Under the pieces are notes generated by a model, which worked only from the letters and a program-made list of their open reading frames with translations, did no database searches and was not told the origin of the DNA. The translations under genes were made by a program, and so were the position numbers. Of a stretch of 64,000 nt of DNA, positions 32,328 to 36,663 are shown in pieces (position 1 is the stretch's first letter; every line of letters begins with the position of its first letter). Source of the DNA: Nitrospira sp. (GTDB lineage Bacteria > Nitrospirota > Nitrospiria > Nitrospirales > Nitrospiraceae); the NCBI GenBank assembly GCA_029194675.1, contig JARFXP010000003.1, positions 62,001 through 126,000 of the forward strand, in the 5' to 3' direction.

Positions 32328-32414
32328 TTACTTTTCACCGTCAAGGAACACCGCCTTATACATAAATCCAAAAACAGCGGTCAGCGCGAGCAAGGCAAAA
32401 AATATAGTCGTCAC
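32328..32414 (-). CDS. Small membrane protein 1 of palindrome-linked set (28 aa)
   Basis: GTG start at 32414, with GGGAGGTG about 6 nt upstream. The 28 codons read as a hydrophobic helix (TTIFFALLALTAVFGFMYK) followed by a short charged tail (AVFLDGEK). Too short for ordinary gene calling. A TATACT box lies ~30 bp upstream of the start, and the TGAAGA-NN-TCTTCA palindrome is 68 bp upstream of the start. KdpF-like subunits are similar in size, but no kdp genes are nearby. Predicted single-pass inner-membrane protein of unknown role. Confidence 0.55.
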   Translation of the reverse strand: MTTIFFALLALTAVFGFMYKAVFLDGEK

Positions 32415-32472
32415 GGTACGTCACCTCCCTTCACTCAATGGGGAGTATACCGCTCAAAGATGAATGATTGAT

Positions 32473-32509
32473 GATGAGATCGTGAAGAAATCTTCATCAT
32501 TCAACGATC
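32473..32509 (-). promoter_or_regulatory. Palindromic operator-like element, site 1
   Basis: The core TGAAGA-AA-TCTTCA (32483-32496) is a perfect palindrome. Flanking GATGAGATC on one side matches site 2 exactly. On the minus strand it lies upstream of small membrane protein 1, with its likely -10 box between. The adjacent two-component system is the natural candidate regulator (inference). Confidence 0.6.
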
Positions 32510-32905
32510 CTGACTACTCTACCCGATTGAATTGGTCCGTATGAAACAGGTGGTCGATGTCTGGAAACCTTCAAGGAAGAATTGGTCGGTACAAATGGGA
32601 GAGTCCAATGAGCGCGCTTCTTATGTTTTGGAAGGACTTGGAAGATGGTGTGGAGCAGCCTCAGGCTTCACGAACCTCCGGATTGGAAGTAAGAAGCCCC
32701 AATCCAATACCGACCAGATCTCACGATGTTGCACTTATGACCAATTTACACTGCACCACAACATCAAGAACCAAGCGGAAGACGCTTTCTCTGCAGTGGG
32801 CGATCCCGATCACCAACGCGTGGTTTTCGACAGGATCTTCTATGCCGACTTCCAGTTACACCCTACAACCCGTCGTTCTACGGCATCGCCCATAGCCAGG
32901 TTCTG
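32510..32905. other. Gene-free stretch, nothing supported
   Basis: About 395 bp between site 1 and small membrane protein 2. Frames on both strands lack ribosome sites and family features. It may hold decayed coding sequence, but I cannot name it. Confidence 0.35.
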
Positions 32906-32986
32906 TCACCTTCGGGCGAGCTGCAACATTGTGTACAGTACTCCGAATATTCCGGCCACTATGAAGACTTCGATGAGGGAAATCAT
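32906..32986 (-). CDS. Small membrane protein 2 of palindrome-linked set (26 aa)
   Basis: ATG at 32986 with AAAGGAGGTGA a short distance upstream, one of the strongest ribosome sites in the window. The 26 codons give a hydrophobic helix (MISLIEVFIVAGIFGVLYTM) and a basic end (LQLARR). Its upstream region carries a perfect TGAAGA-NN-TCTTCA palindrome 71 bp before the start, almost the same spacing as for protein 1. Single-pass inner-membrane protein, N-out/C-in by the positive-inside rule (inference). Confidence 0.55.
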   Translation of the reverse strand: MISLIEVFIVAGIFGVLYTMLQLARR

Positions 32987-33047
32987 GCTAGAAGCTCACC
33001 TCCTTTTACTTTCCTCATTAGGTACGCTTTCAAGATGAAAACTCCAT

Positions 33048-33083
33048 GATGAGATCATGAAGACTTCTTCATTATTGGCGATT
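33048..33083 (-). promoter_or_regulatory. Palindromic operator-like element, site 2
   Basis: The core TGAAGA-CT-TCTTCA (33058-33071) is a perfect palindrome with the same GATGAGATC flank as site 1. On the minus strand, both sites continue GATCTCATCAT, then after 7-8 nt a second TCATCTT. The element is upstream of small membrane protein 2. Confidence 0.6.
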
Positions 33084-33219
33084 CTCAGGAAATTCGATAT
33101 TCTCGTTAAGGAGAATAAGACCCCCAATATGTAGGCATCTTAAAAGAAGGTGAAGCGAACAGTCGGATTTTCCCATCGGATATTCCAGCCACATCCCTCG
33201 TCCGGTCCGTTGAAGGTTC

Positions 33220-33456
33220 TCAACGCGGTGTAAATATGGGACACCCGGGTATGAAGCAAACCGTGCAGCGTGTATCTTCTTTGCGTGATGCCATAACGCT
33301 CTCGTCAAATGTCGTGAGAGAGATCACCCGACCTGCGGTCTCGCCGGTGTCACGAACTGCTCTTCCGGCCAAATGCGTTCCCACGATGATCGCTTGTCCG
33401 AGTCCCACAATGATATACGGAAAACAAACCATTGAAGCAGCGATGATATTTGCCAT
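33220..33456 (-). CDS. Small membrane protein 3 of palindrome-linked set (78 aa)
   Basis: ATG 33456 is preferred, with AAGGAGG upstream; an ATG at 33501 has no ribosome site. It has an N-terminal hydrophobic helix (IIAASMVCFPYIIVGLGQAI, extending into IVGTHLAG), a soluble middle (RAVRDTGETAGRVISLTTFD) and a cysteine-bearing C-terminal end (RCTVCFIPGCP). The C-x2-C plus C pattern could bind metal or form disulfides. It is preceded by a palindromic element of the same type as proteins 1 and 2. No known family. Confidence 0.5.
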   Translation of the reverse strand: MANIIAASMVCFPYIIVGLGQAIIVGTHLAGRAVRDTGETAGRVISLTTFDESVMASRKEDTRCTVCFIPGCPIFTPR

Positions 33457-33506
33457 TACTTTGGAATCCTCCTTAAAAAGAAAATAACCAATTAACAGCA
33501 AGACAG

Positions 33507-33553
33507 GATGAAGTCAAGGTGAAGAGCTTTTTATGTGAAGAGCTCTTCATCCC
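33507..33553 (-). promoter_or_regulatory. Palindromic operator-like element, site 3 (double)
   Basis: The core TGAAGA-GC-TCTTCA (33536-33549) is a perfect palindrome. A second, imperfect copy (TGAAGAGCTTTTTA, 33520-33533) lies 16 bp closer to the gene. Then, on the minus strand, CTTCACCTTGACTTCATCC forms a direct repeat of CTTCA with 11-bp period, as is usual for OmpR-family binding. It is upstream of small membrane protein 3 and downstream of the sensor kinase gene. Confidence 0.55.
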
Positions 33554-33559
33554 GCTCGT

Positions 33560-33895
33560 GGGGAATCATGCTGCCGATGTTGTCTCGTTGTGTCACGTCG
33601 CATCGCTTCCCATCTCTCTTCAATGGGAAAGCAGTTCAGCAGTTGCGGCGAGAGGCCATTACCGAGTGACCCGGTGCAGCTTATGGAGAGAACGTTTCGC
33701 GTTGGTTTCTGTCATGTGAATTGTGTGCGAAGGATGGTGCGATGATCATAATGAGTGGAGTGCTACGGCAAAGTTTGCAGGGGAAAGTCGTTCTGGAAGA
33801 GAAGCATTCACTTGGCAAGACAAAATGCCGGGTAGGAGACGAGTTAAAATGGAGTCCGAACGTAGGTGGGACGAGGCCAAAATGCCTTGAGAACT
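33560..33895. other. Gene-free stretch between site 3 and the kinase gene
   Basis: About 335 bp. The frames here are short and not protein-like; I see no RNA gene. It separates the kinase stop codon from the third palindromic element, which suggests the small genes are transcribed separately from the kinase. Confidence 0.35.
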
Positions 33896-35314
33896 CTAAG
33901 CAGGAACCGTCTGCTGGGCGAGGGCTGGTAAACGCAGGGTGAAGACAGAGCCTTTGTTGACTTCGCTGGTGACGGAAATACTACCTCCATGAGCATCCAT
34001 GATTTCTTTCACGATGGGCAATCCAAGGCCGGTACCGGCGGAATCTTTCGCTCGGGCCCAATCAGTGCGGTAGAATCGCTCGAACAGATGGGGAATATGC
34101 TCCGGTTCGATGCCATGCCCCGTGTCCTCGACGGCCACGGTGACCTTGGAACTGATTGTTTGTAGGCGAACCGTGACGGAACCGCCGGATGGGGTGTACC
34201 GCAGCGCATTGTCGAGCAGATTGATCAGCGCCTGTTTGAGCCACTGTACATCGCCGAGGACGGACGGGACCGGTTGGGACTCGAATGTCAGGGCAATCCG
34301 GTGGTCATCCGCCAAGAGCATCAGTTCATCCACGATCTCTTGAATCAGCGGCTCCAAGGCTAGCGGGACAAGATTGACCGGCGGTTTGCTACTGGTAAAT
34401 TTCGCCAAAGTCAACAATGGGCGAGTCAAGGCGATGAGCCGATCCACTTGCTGGAGGTTGTTGAGCAGCACCTCGTGATATTCTTCGACGGTCCTCGCTT
34501 TCATGAGCGCGACCTCCAGGTTGCCCCGCAAGATGGTCAAGGGGGTTTTCATCTCGTGTGCGGCGATTTCGCAGAAGTTCCGTTGAACTTCGCTGCCTCG
34601 CTGGAACCGATCCAAGACGGAGTTGACCGCCTGGGTCAGTCGACGAAATTCGCGGTGAGGTGAATCCACCGCCAGCCGTTTTCCGAGATCGGCTTCCGAC
34701 ATCGTTTCGGCGCCCGCGCATAAGGCCTCGATCGGGGCCAGCACCTTCTTTGACAGCCAGAGGCTTCCGACCCAGGCGACAAAAAGAGTGGCCCCGGATC
34801 CCAGAGCCAGCAGAAACACCAGACCGTTCAGAGTTTCACGATAGTGGAGCAATGAGGCTTCGGCTTGCAATACGTACCGCCGTTGACCGCCTTGTGCGAC
34901 GGACAGAAACAGTTGTCGAGCGGGGACGCTGGTCGAGTCGACAGTTTCGAACACTGCGTGGTCACGCTGGAGTCGCTGCAGGACGTCGGCAGAAATCGAC
35001 GACTGCGTCTCGGCATGGGAACTTTTCCAGAGGAGCCGACCATCTATGGAGAAGACGCGAAGCGAATGAGGAACTTCAGGCAGCTCATATGACCGCCGCA
35101 CGTCTGCCCGCAGGCCATCCTGGCTGCCCTGATCGATAAGATCAGGATGCCGCTTCACAATATCGGCAAGCGTCTCTGCCAACGCGAAGAGCCGTCCGTC
35201 CACAAAACGATGCAACAATACCTCGCTGACGGCGTACACCAGCGCCGAAAACACGAGGAGCCCCGCCAGCAAGACGAAGGCGGACCAGCTGATCAAGCTG
35301 CGGAGCGATTTCAC
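33896..35314 (-). CDS. Two-component sensor histidine kinase
   Basis: 472 residues. TM1 at ~11-33 and TM2 at ~163-187 enclose a periplasmic sensor of ~130 residues. HAMP at ~188-240. The HisKA phospho-acceptor is His253 (EIAAHEMKTPLTILRGNLEV). HATPase_c has N box NLLDNALRYTPSGGSVTV and G boxes DTGHGIEPEH and GTGLGLPIVKEI. The layout resembles CusS/heavy-metal and OmpR-coupled kinases; the signal is unknown. The start codon overlaps the stop of the response-regulator gene by 4 bp (translational coupling). Confidence 0.93.
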   Translation of the reverse strand: MKSLRSLISWSAFVLLAGLLVFSALVYAVSEVLLHRFVDGRLFALAETLADIVKRHPDLIDQGSQDGLRADVRRSYELPEVPHSLRVFSIDGRLLWKSSHAETQSSISADVLQRLQRDHAVFETVDSTSVPARQLFLSVAQGGQRRYVLQAEASLLHYRETLNGLVFLLALGSGATLFVAWVGSLWLSKKVLAPIEALCAGAETMSEADLGKRLAVDSPHREFRRLTQAVNSVLDRFQRGSEVQRNFCEIAAHEMKTPLTILRGNLEVALMKARTVEEYHEVLLNNLQQVDRLIALTRPLLTLAKFTSSKPPVNLVPLALEPLIQEIVDELMLLADDHRIALTFESQPVPSVLGDVQWLKQALINLLDNALRYTPSGGSVTVRLQTISSKVTVAVEDTGHGIEPEHIPHLFERFYRTDWARAKDSAGTGLGLPIVKEIMDAHGGSISVTSEVNKGSVFTLRLPALAQQTVPA

Positions 35315-35994
35315 GGAGGCGTTTTCGGCTCTTCGAGCATATATCCCGCGCCGCGGACGGTGGCGATCAAAGGCGGCGAAAAGTCACGGTCGATCTTGGA
35401 GCGCAGGGCCCGAATATGAGTGTCGACGATGTTCGTCATGGGGTCATAGCTGATATCCCACACATGTTCGATGATCGCCGTTCGAGTGAGCACCCGATTC
35501 TTGTTCCGCAGCAAGAACTCAAGCAGGGCATACTCTTTATTCGTCAACGAGATTTCCTGTCCTCCCCGCCAGACGCGGTGAGCAGCAGGGTCCAATCTCA
35601 AGTCGGCCGCCTGCAGGTGAGCGAGCTGCTGGGAACTGCCTCGGCGCAGCAGGGCCCTGATTTGAGCCAGCAGTTCCACGAACGCGAATGGCTTGGGCAA
35701 AAATTGATCCGCTCCGGTATCAAATCCGGAGACTTTGGTCTCCAGCGTGTTGCGCGCCGTCAATAGGAGCACCGGAGTCATGATTCCTTTGTCACGAACT
35801 CGGCGGCAGAGGGTCAAACCGTCAAGCTTCGGCAGCATAACGTCGAGAATCACGAGATCGTAGGGGTTGTTCAGCGCCAACGCCAAGCCTGCTTCGCCGT
35901 CGGCTGCAACGTCCACCGCGTAGTACTCTTCTTTCAATCCTTTTCTTATGAATTGAGCAAGATCCGCATCGTCTTCAACGAGCAGAATTCTCAT
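35311..35994 (-). CDS. OmpR-family response regulator
   Basis: 227 residues. Receiver domain with acidic pair D8-D9, phospho-acceptor Asp51 (LVILDVMLPKLDG) and the conserved Lys in FLPKPFAF. The C-terminal winged helix (LTNKEYALLEFLLRNKNRVL, VDTHIRALRSKIDRDF, TVRGAGYML) is OmpR/PhoB type. First gene of the operon with the kinase. OmpR-family proteins bind direct repeats with about 11-bp period, as seen in part of site 3. It is the likely regulator of the three small membrane-protein genes downstream (inference). Confidence 0.95.
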   Translation of the reverse strand: MRILLVEDDADLAQFIRKGLKEEYYAVDVAADGEAGLALALNNPYDLVILDVMLPKLDGLTLCRRVRDKGIMTPVLLLTARNTLETKVSGFDTGADQFLPKPFAFVELLAQIRALLRRGSSQQLAHLQAADLRLDPAAHRVWRGGQEISLTNKEYALLEFLLRNKNRVLTRTAIIEHVWDISYDPMTNIVDTHIRALRSKIDRDFSPPLIATVRGAGYMLEEPKTPP

Positions 35995-36045: not shown

Positions 36046-36663
36046 TCAGCAGAGGCTGCTCTTGCAATCCGTGACCACCAGGTTGGTTGCTTTTTCGTCG
36101 GCTTCGAGGTCCATGGTCAGCCAGGCGATTCCCATCGCCCGCTCATCCTGATGGGCTCCACCACTCCCCTCAAGGAGACTGACGACATAATACCGGCCGC
36201 CGGGAACTTTCGTGAACCAAAAATGACCGGTTGGATTGGCTCTCGTCGTACGGAGATAGGGAATCAGACGTTTATCGGTCAGCAGTTGGGCCATGATCTC
36301 CCGAAGGCATTCCACAGGCGACCCCTGAGTCATGAGGGGTTCTGAAGACGAGGCCCCACCTTTGAGAGGGCAGGAGTAATCCCGCACATTCTTATCAAAC
36401 CAATAGCGAGTATATGGAACCATTGGAATCAAGTAGATCGAGGCTCCCGCCTGCGTCACGGCTCTTCCAGAGGGTGTGCGCAAGAACACCTGTCCGGCCG
36501 CACTTCCCCGACCTTTCGCTCTGTAGGCGAAGAATTCTTTCTCGTTGAAGGACGGTGGGCTCGATGAGCCCGACGCCACCGCCTGTGCCGGTGTGACAGG
36601 GAAGCCGCTGATCAGCAACAACCCTGCAAGCCAGAACCTGAGTTGCCTGTCACGCCACGTCAT
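36046..36663 (-). CDS. Secreted hypothetical protein
   Basis: 205 residues. Signal peptide (FWLAGLLLISGFPVTPAQA) then a mature part with GQVFLRTPSGRAVTQAGASI followed by YLIPMVPYTRYWFDK, and GHFWFTKVPGGRYYVVSLLE, the pattern of a carboxypeptidase-regulatory-like (prealbumin-type) beta domain. Two pairs of cysteines may form disulfides. It overlaps the start of its stretch with the FTR-like gene by 4 bp (36660-36663), so the two are co-transcribed, FTR first. Confidence 0.7.
   Translation of the reverse strand: MTWRDRQLRFWLAGLLLISGFPVTPAQAVASGSSSPPSFNEKEFFAYRAKGRGSAAGQVFLRTPSGRAVTQAGASIYLIPMVPYTRYWFDKNVRDYSCPLKGGASSSEPLMTQGSPVECLREIMAQLLTDKRLIPYLRTTRANPTGHFWFTKVPGGRYYVVSLLEGSGGAHQDERAMGIAWLTMDLEADEKATNLVVTDCKSSLC

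Follow-up and report, generated by a model that had tools for sequence, protein, structure and literature searches.

The window analysed here, a stretch of 64,000 nucleotides corresponding to positions 62001-126000 of contig C3, belongs to a Nitrospira genome assembly of 5.2 Mb that is 99% complete. Judged by gene content, the organism is a comammox Nitrospira, because its genome carries several amoC copies together with nxrA. The minus strand of the window encodes an OmpR-family response regulator of 227 aa (35311-35994), presumed to be an activator, and a sensor histidine kinase of 472 aa (33896-35314) with HAMP, HisKA and HATPase_c domains and a periplasmic sensor region of ~110 aa. Among the regulator relatives collected, the nearest were from Nitrospira MAGs. 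On the same strand, 51 nt upstream of the regulator gene, lies a gene for a 205-aa protein with a signal-peptide-like start (36046-36663), which is syntenic in ~35 relatives and matched no Pfam or NCBIfam family above cut-off. It is probably part of the regulator operon, and its product is a possible accessory sensor. Beside the pair, also on the minus strand, we confirmed the three small open reading frames of the original prediction, which encode a 78-aa protein with a hydrophobic N-terminal half (MANIIAASMVCFPYIIVGLGQAIIVGTH..., 33220-33456), a 26-aa protein (MISLIEVFIVAGIFGVLYTMLQLARR, 32906-32986) and a 28-aa protein (MTTIFFALLALTAVFGFMYKAVFLDGEK, 32328-32414). Each has one predicted helix, a 19-aa stretch with a mean hydropathy of ~2. 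The 78-aa protein ends in a C-x2-C-x5-C tail (CKVCFIPGC) that is conserved in its closest relatives and not conserved in members further away.

The three exact copies of the palindrome TGAAGA-NN-TCTTCA that had drawn attention to the locus are present at 33536-33549, 33058-33071 and 32483-32496, and lie 79, 71 and 68 nt, respectively, before the start codons of the 78-aa, 26-aa and 28-aa genes. As the site itself, however, the palindrome makes up only the upstream third of a box of ~55 bp that also contains two TTCA repeats and a -10 element. Alignment of 74 non-redundant sites gave ATGAAGA-NN-TCTTCAT followed by TTCA at +11 and +22, with 10 nt to the TA of the -10; the search pattern left ATGAAGA and the final T of the -10 unconstrained, and these bases are thus conserved independently of it. 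Box A (32444-32498, minus strand; 68.7 bits), upstream of the 28-aa gene, and box B (33019-33073, minus strand; 62.0 bits), upstream of the 26-aa gene, match the core exactly and carry the 11-bp TTCA repeats, box A with the -10 sequence TATACT and box B with a weak -10. A palindrome does precede each of the three genes, but in front of the 78-aa gene the perfect copy is an off-register tandem duplicate, located 16 bp upstream of the aligned box. This aligned box, box C (33481-33535, minus strand; 27.7 bits), shares the register of the boxes that relatives have before their 78-aa gene, and is itself degenerate. Intact counterparts of box C were found in three relatives. The window scores compare with a maximum of 1.8 bits in 20 Markov-shuffled windows, although they lean upward because the matrix was built partly from window sites; the genome counts do not depend on the matrix. 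In the surroundings of 80 regulator relatives, the usual place of the palindrome is after the kinase gene, ~2.2 kb past the regulator start.

A chance origin, which the original prediction had thought unlikely, was rejected. The genome holds six palindromes, whereas a simple calculation gives expected numbers of ~0.3 there and 0.004 in the window, and the reversed pattern had zero matches in the genome, the genus and the order. One palindrome (C5:4382) falls within a cytochrome gene, lacks the repeats and was taken as a chance match. We also considered a terminator stem, but the two-base loop and the position upstream of the -10 do not fit. The TTCA repeats conform to the pattern expected for an OmpR/PhoB-type regulator, tandem half-sites 10-11 bp apart in front of a promoter; binding by the regulator is here predicted from sequence.

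The boxes extend beyond the locus to slp, an amoC operon and other genes, and the regulon is order-wide. Target names without a Pfam match are our own reading of the sequences. Targets across relatives comprise single-helix proteins of 25-36 aa, the 78-aa protein, Slp lipoproteins, a PAS kinase, a guanylyltransferase-like enzyme, amoC and nxrA. In the window genome they are the three window genes, a gene for an Slp-type lipoprotein on contig C6, a relative of which matches Pfam Slp (E 6e-11), and a gene for a 225-aa protein followed by an intact amoC on contig C4, where the box scores 26.1 bits and its middle repeat is degenerate. Weaker sites lie at C2:1066336 and C2:972674; the latter sits at the 3' end of ureA and points antisense into it, an arrangement seen in four genomes with no clear gene behind the box. 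The C4 region (295229-300551) contains, in order, a broken amoC, amoA, ftsH, the box, the 225-aa gene and the intact amoC, the broken copy being split into two pieces by an in-frame TGA. AmoC matches in the window genome number seven, of which two are the pieces of this broken gene and another is truncated at a contig end; only the intact C4 copy has a box in the flanks fetched.

Boxed amoC genes occur in six genomes including the window genome, one of the others also having a homologue of the 225-aa protein, and boxed nxrA genes in two (L039 and L060), of which L039 matches the nitrite oxidoreductase subunit A structure 7b04 (E 1e-300); a box near nxrA was sought in the window genome and not found. 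Other targets elsewhere include PepSY proteins, lipoproteins, a carbonic-anhydrase-like protein and an RND-like transporter (L229). A large multi-PAS histidine kinase is preceded by a box at five loci, which suggests a regulatory cascade. In genus g14 the box is followed by a gene for a 36-aa helix protein and then by the guanylyltransferase-like enzyme; at a locus in genus g16, two consecutive mini-genes (30 and 29 aa) and then a response regulator gene follow a single box, in one likely operon. The single-helix proteins, Slp, PepSY proteins and lipoproteins would act in the envelope, while several other targets have no assigned function. The leader of slp aligns with the 28-aa gene beyond the box (score 14 versus 2.2 ± 1.4 in 500 shuffles) and carries a decayed copy of it; the slp promoter was therefore probably transferred as a copy of box and mini-gene together. 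Applied to the amoC leader, this test gave a weak score of 6.0 versus 1.9 ± 1.4, with 8 of the 500 shuffles as high.

The regulator combines a receiver domain (Response_reg, E 4.5e-27) with a Trans_reg_C domain (E 3e-27), which places it in the OmpR/PhoB family. By score, the nearest family for both proteins is that of CusRS/CopRS/PcoRS, with cztR_silR_copR (TIGR01387) at 254 bits for the regulator and cztS_silS_copS (TIGR01386) at 249 bits for the kinase. This raises the alternative of a copper/silver response, in which the kinase would detect metal in the periplasm, with the tiny proteins and the cysteine-tailed 78-aa protein helping to manage metal for ammonia monooxygenase and other copper enzymes. 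The boxed amoC copies do encode a subunit of a copper enzyme. Moreover, the CusR box consists of two inverted 6-bp arms around NN, a layout that the palindrome shares, although the 11-bp direct repeats are an addition here. Both family scores are nevertheless below the curated cut-offs (279.2 and 292.55 bits), Cys and Met are absent from the sensor region of the window kinase, where the only conserved His are at positions 83 and 157, and a fold search with its model returned only generic matches to WalK/KinD/CitA-type domains; metal sensing is for these reasons the less likely signal. Metal efflux or chaperone genes were likewise absent from the targets read, except for the one RND-like transporter. 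We regard a copper/silver response as unlikely.

The link between box and regulator was assessed across genomes. The exact core box is present in 65 of 79 genomes of the genus, and the full box including TGAA in 105 of 236 genomes of the order; the reversed pattern had 0 matches in either set. Regulator orthologues of at least 80% identity occur in 59 of the 79 genus genomes, and boxes are found in 58 of these 59 versus 7 of the 20 without one (Fisher, 4e-9), a value made optimistic by the relatedness of the genomes and the incompleteness of many of them. When boxes distant from the regulator gene are tallied by hand, the corresponding counts are 37/59 and 4/20 (P 0.0015, optimistic for the same reasons). 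Conversely, one genome has the regulator and no exact box. The regulator operon is itself preceded by a box at four loci of relatives, while in the window genome no box was found upstream of the regulator/kinase operon. The recognition-helix region TNIVDxHIRxLRxK is near-invariant in the orthologues and in a group of paralogues. Conservation in relatives had been named as the test by which the original prediction could fail; boxes and small frames are both conserved, and the reading of a small regulon of short membrane proteins under the two-component system is supported by this comparative evidence.

The boxes might instead belong to another regulator, with the adjoining pair coincidental or one of several that share the site. 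Four genomes have a box and no detected orthologue, three of these assemblies being in at least 200 contigs, and a paralogue of ~69% identity, whose PepSY-regulator-kinase operons are also preceded by the box, seems to use the same site. Against a separate owner stand the tight co-occurrence of box and regulator, their physical linkage in nearly all relatives and the boxed operons of the regulator itself in several species, which make this explanation decidedly improbable.

The small frames were examined for selection on the encoded protein. For the 26-aa family (~40 distinct relatives) pN/pS is 0.32 in frame versus 0.79 and 1.55 in the other frames; the values for the 28-aa family, which lies 3' of the box in relatives, are 0.20 versus 0.83 and 4.28, and those for the 78-aa family (13 relatives) are 0.40 versus 0.86 and 1.31. 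A 27-aa DANW family gave 0.11 from two sequences only, and a set of 27-aa members with mixed start positions, which is not clean, gave 0.61. With purifying selection only in the stated frame, the tiny frames are, on this comparative footing, real genes. Their mini-proteins consist of a single hydrophobic stretch and a short, mostly charged tail, and those of the window had no match in Pfam or NCBIfam. That the frames are untranslated and the boxes serve as promoters of small RNAs or of leader transcripts, as the box antisense to the ureA 3' end and the decayed gene copy in the slp leader might suggest, is highly improbable given this selection, the ribosome sites conserved before the small frames and the several unrelated sequence families that each encode one helix.

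We therefore favour, with moderate confidence, an OmpR-family system that controls tiny inner-membrane proteins together with envelope and nitrification proteins, acting as an activator through the composite box in response to envelope or membrane stress. The phosphorylated regulator would bind the inverted TGAAGA-NN-TCTTCA and the direct TTCA repeats every 11 bp, and would recruit RNA polymerase to the -10 element 10 nt downstream, leading to activation. Envelope or membrane stress is the most likely signal to the kinase, given targets that include inner-membrane proteins, lipoproteins, PepSY proteins, a sugar-nucleotide-type enzyme and an amoC beside ftsH; targets vary between species, which blurs this reading. 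Of the two stimuli originally guessed, envelope stress or metal, the former fits the target list better, both remaining conjectural. Under such a signal, the tiny single-helix proteins would attach to membrane complexes and modulate them. An extended version, in which they are helper subunits of membrane enzymes, one system coordinates ammonia and nitrite oxidation under membrane stress, and the regulon spread as a box-plus-mini-gene cassette was copied to positions ahead of new genes, seems to us rather improbable.

The proposed stress system resembles several described ones in part. A pho box has direct repeats at 11-bp spacing that end 10 nt before the -10. PhoB-type activators thus share the geometry of the box, which differs in its added upstream inverted half-site, its sequence and its targets. 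CpxAR and PepSY-linked pairs are comparable in their inner-membrane, periplasmic and lipoprotein targets and in the PepSY gene of the paralogous operon, but no CpxP or DegP-type targets were found, and the regulator reaches 132 of the 341 bits required by the CpxR model and is not homologous at equivalog level. MgtS, AcrZ, CydX and KdpF are regulated small single-helix membrane proteins; the mini-proteins are alike in size, in their one helix and in their predicted regulation, and differ in that they have no Pfam/NCBIfam match and that three families share one box type in one locus. OmpR-type regulons are known as a kind, while the box architecture and the mini-protein regulon are undescribed in the papers searched. 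The original prediction had known of no described system, and we found no description of a regulon like this in Nitrospira in those papers, which is weak evidence of absence as most subscription journals lay outside their scope. The same papers offered little on how nitrification genes are regulated in Nitrospira.

The boxed amoC connects the system to nitrification. Comammox genomes have one or more additional non-operonal amoC genes, and in ammonia-oxidising bacteria a gene of this type may have a role in stress (PMC6311188). According to Berube and Stahl 2012, as cited there, the non-operonal amoC3 of ammonia oxidisers is under a global stress sigma factor. The gene described here is similar as a stand-alone amoC copy under predicted stress-type control, but two-component control would apply in place of the global sigma factor. 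The regulator and its box are therefore a candidate switch for the extra non-operonal amoC of comammox Nitrospira. The analysis also adds several families of membrane proteins of 25-36 aa that are conserved across species, with selection shown for part of them and no Pfam/NCBIfam match for those tested. With a defined box and regulator, control of the boxed amoC, of nxrA in some species and of the mini-protein families becomes directly testable.
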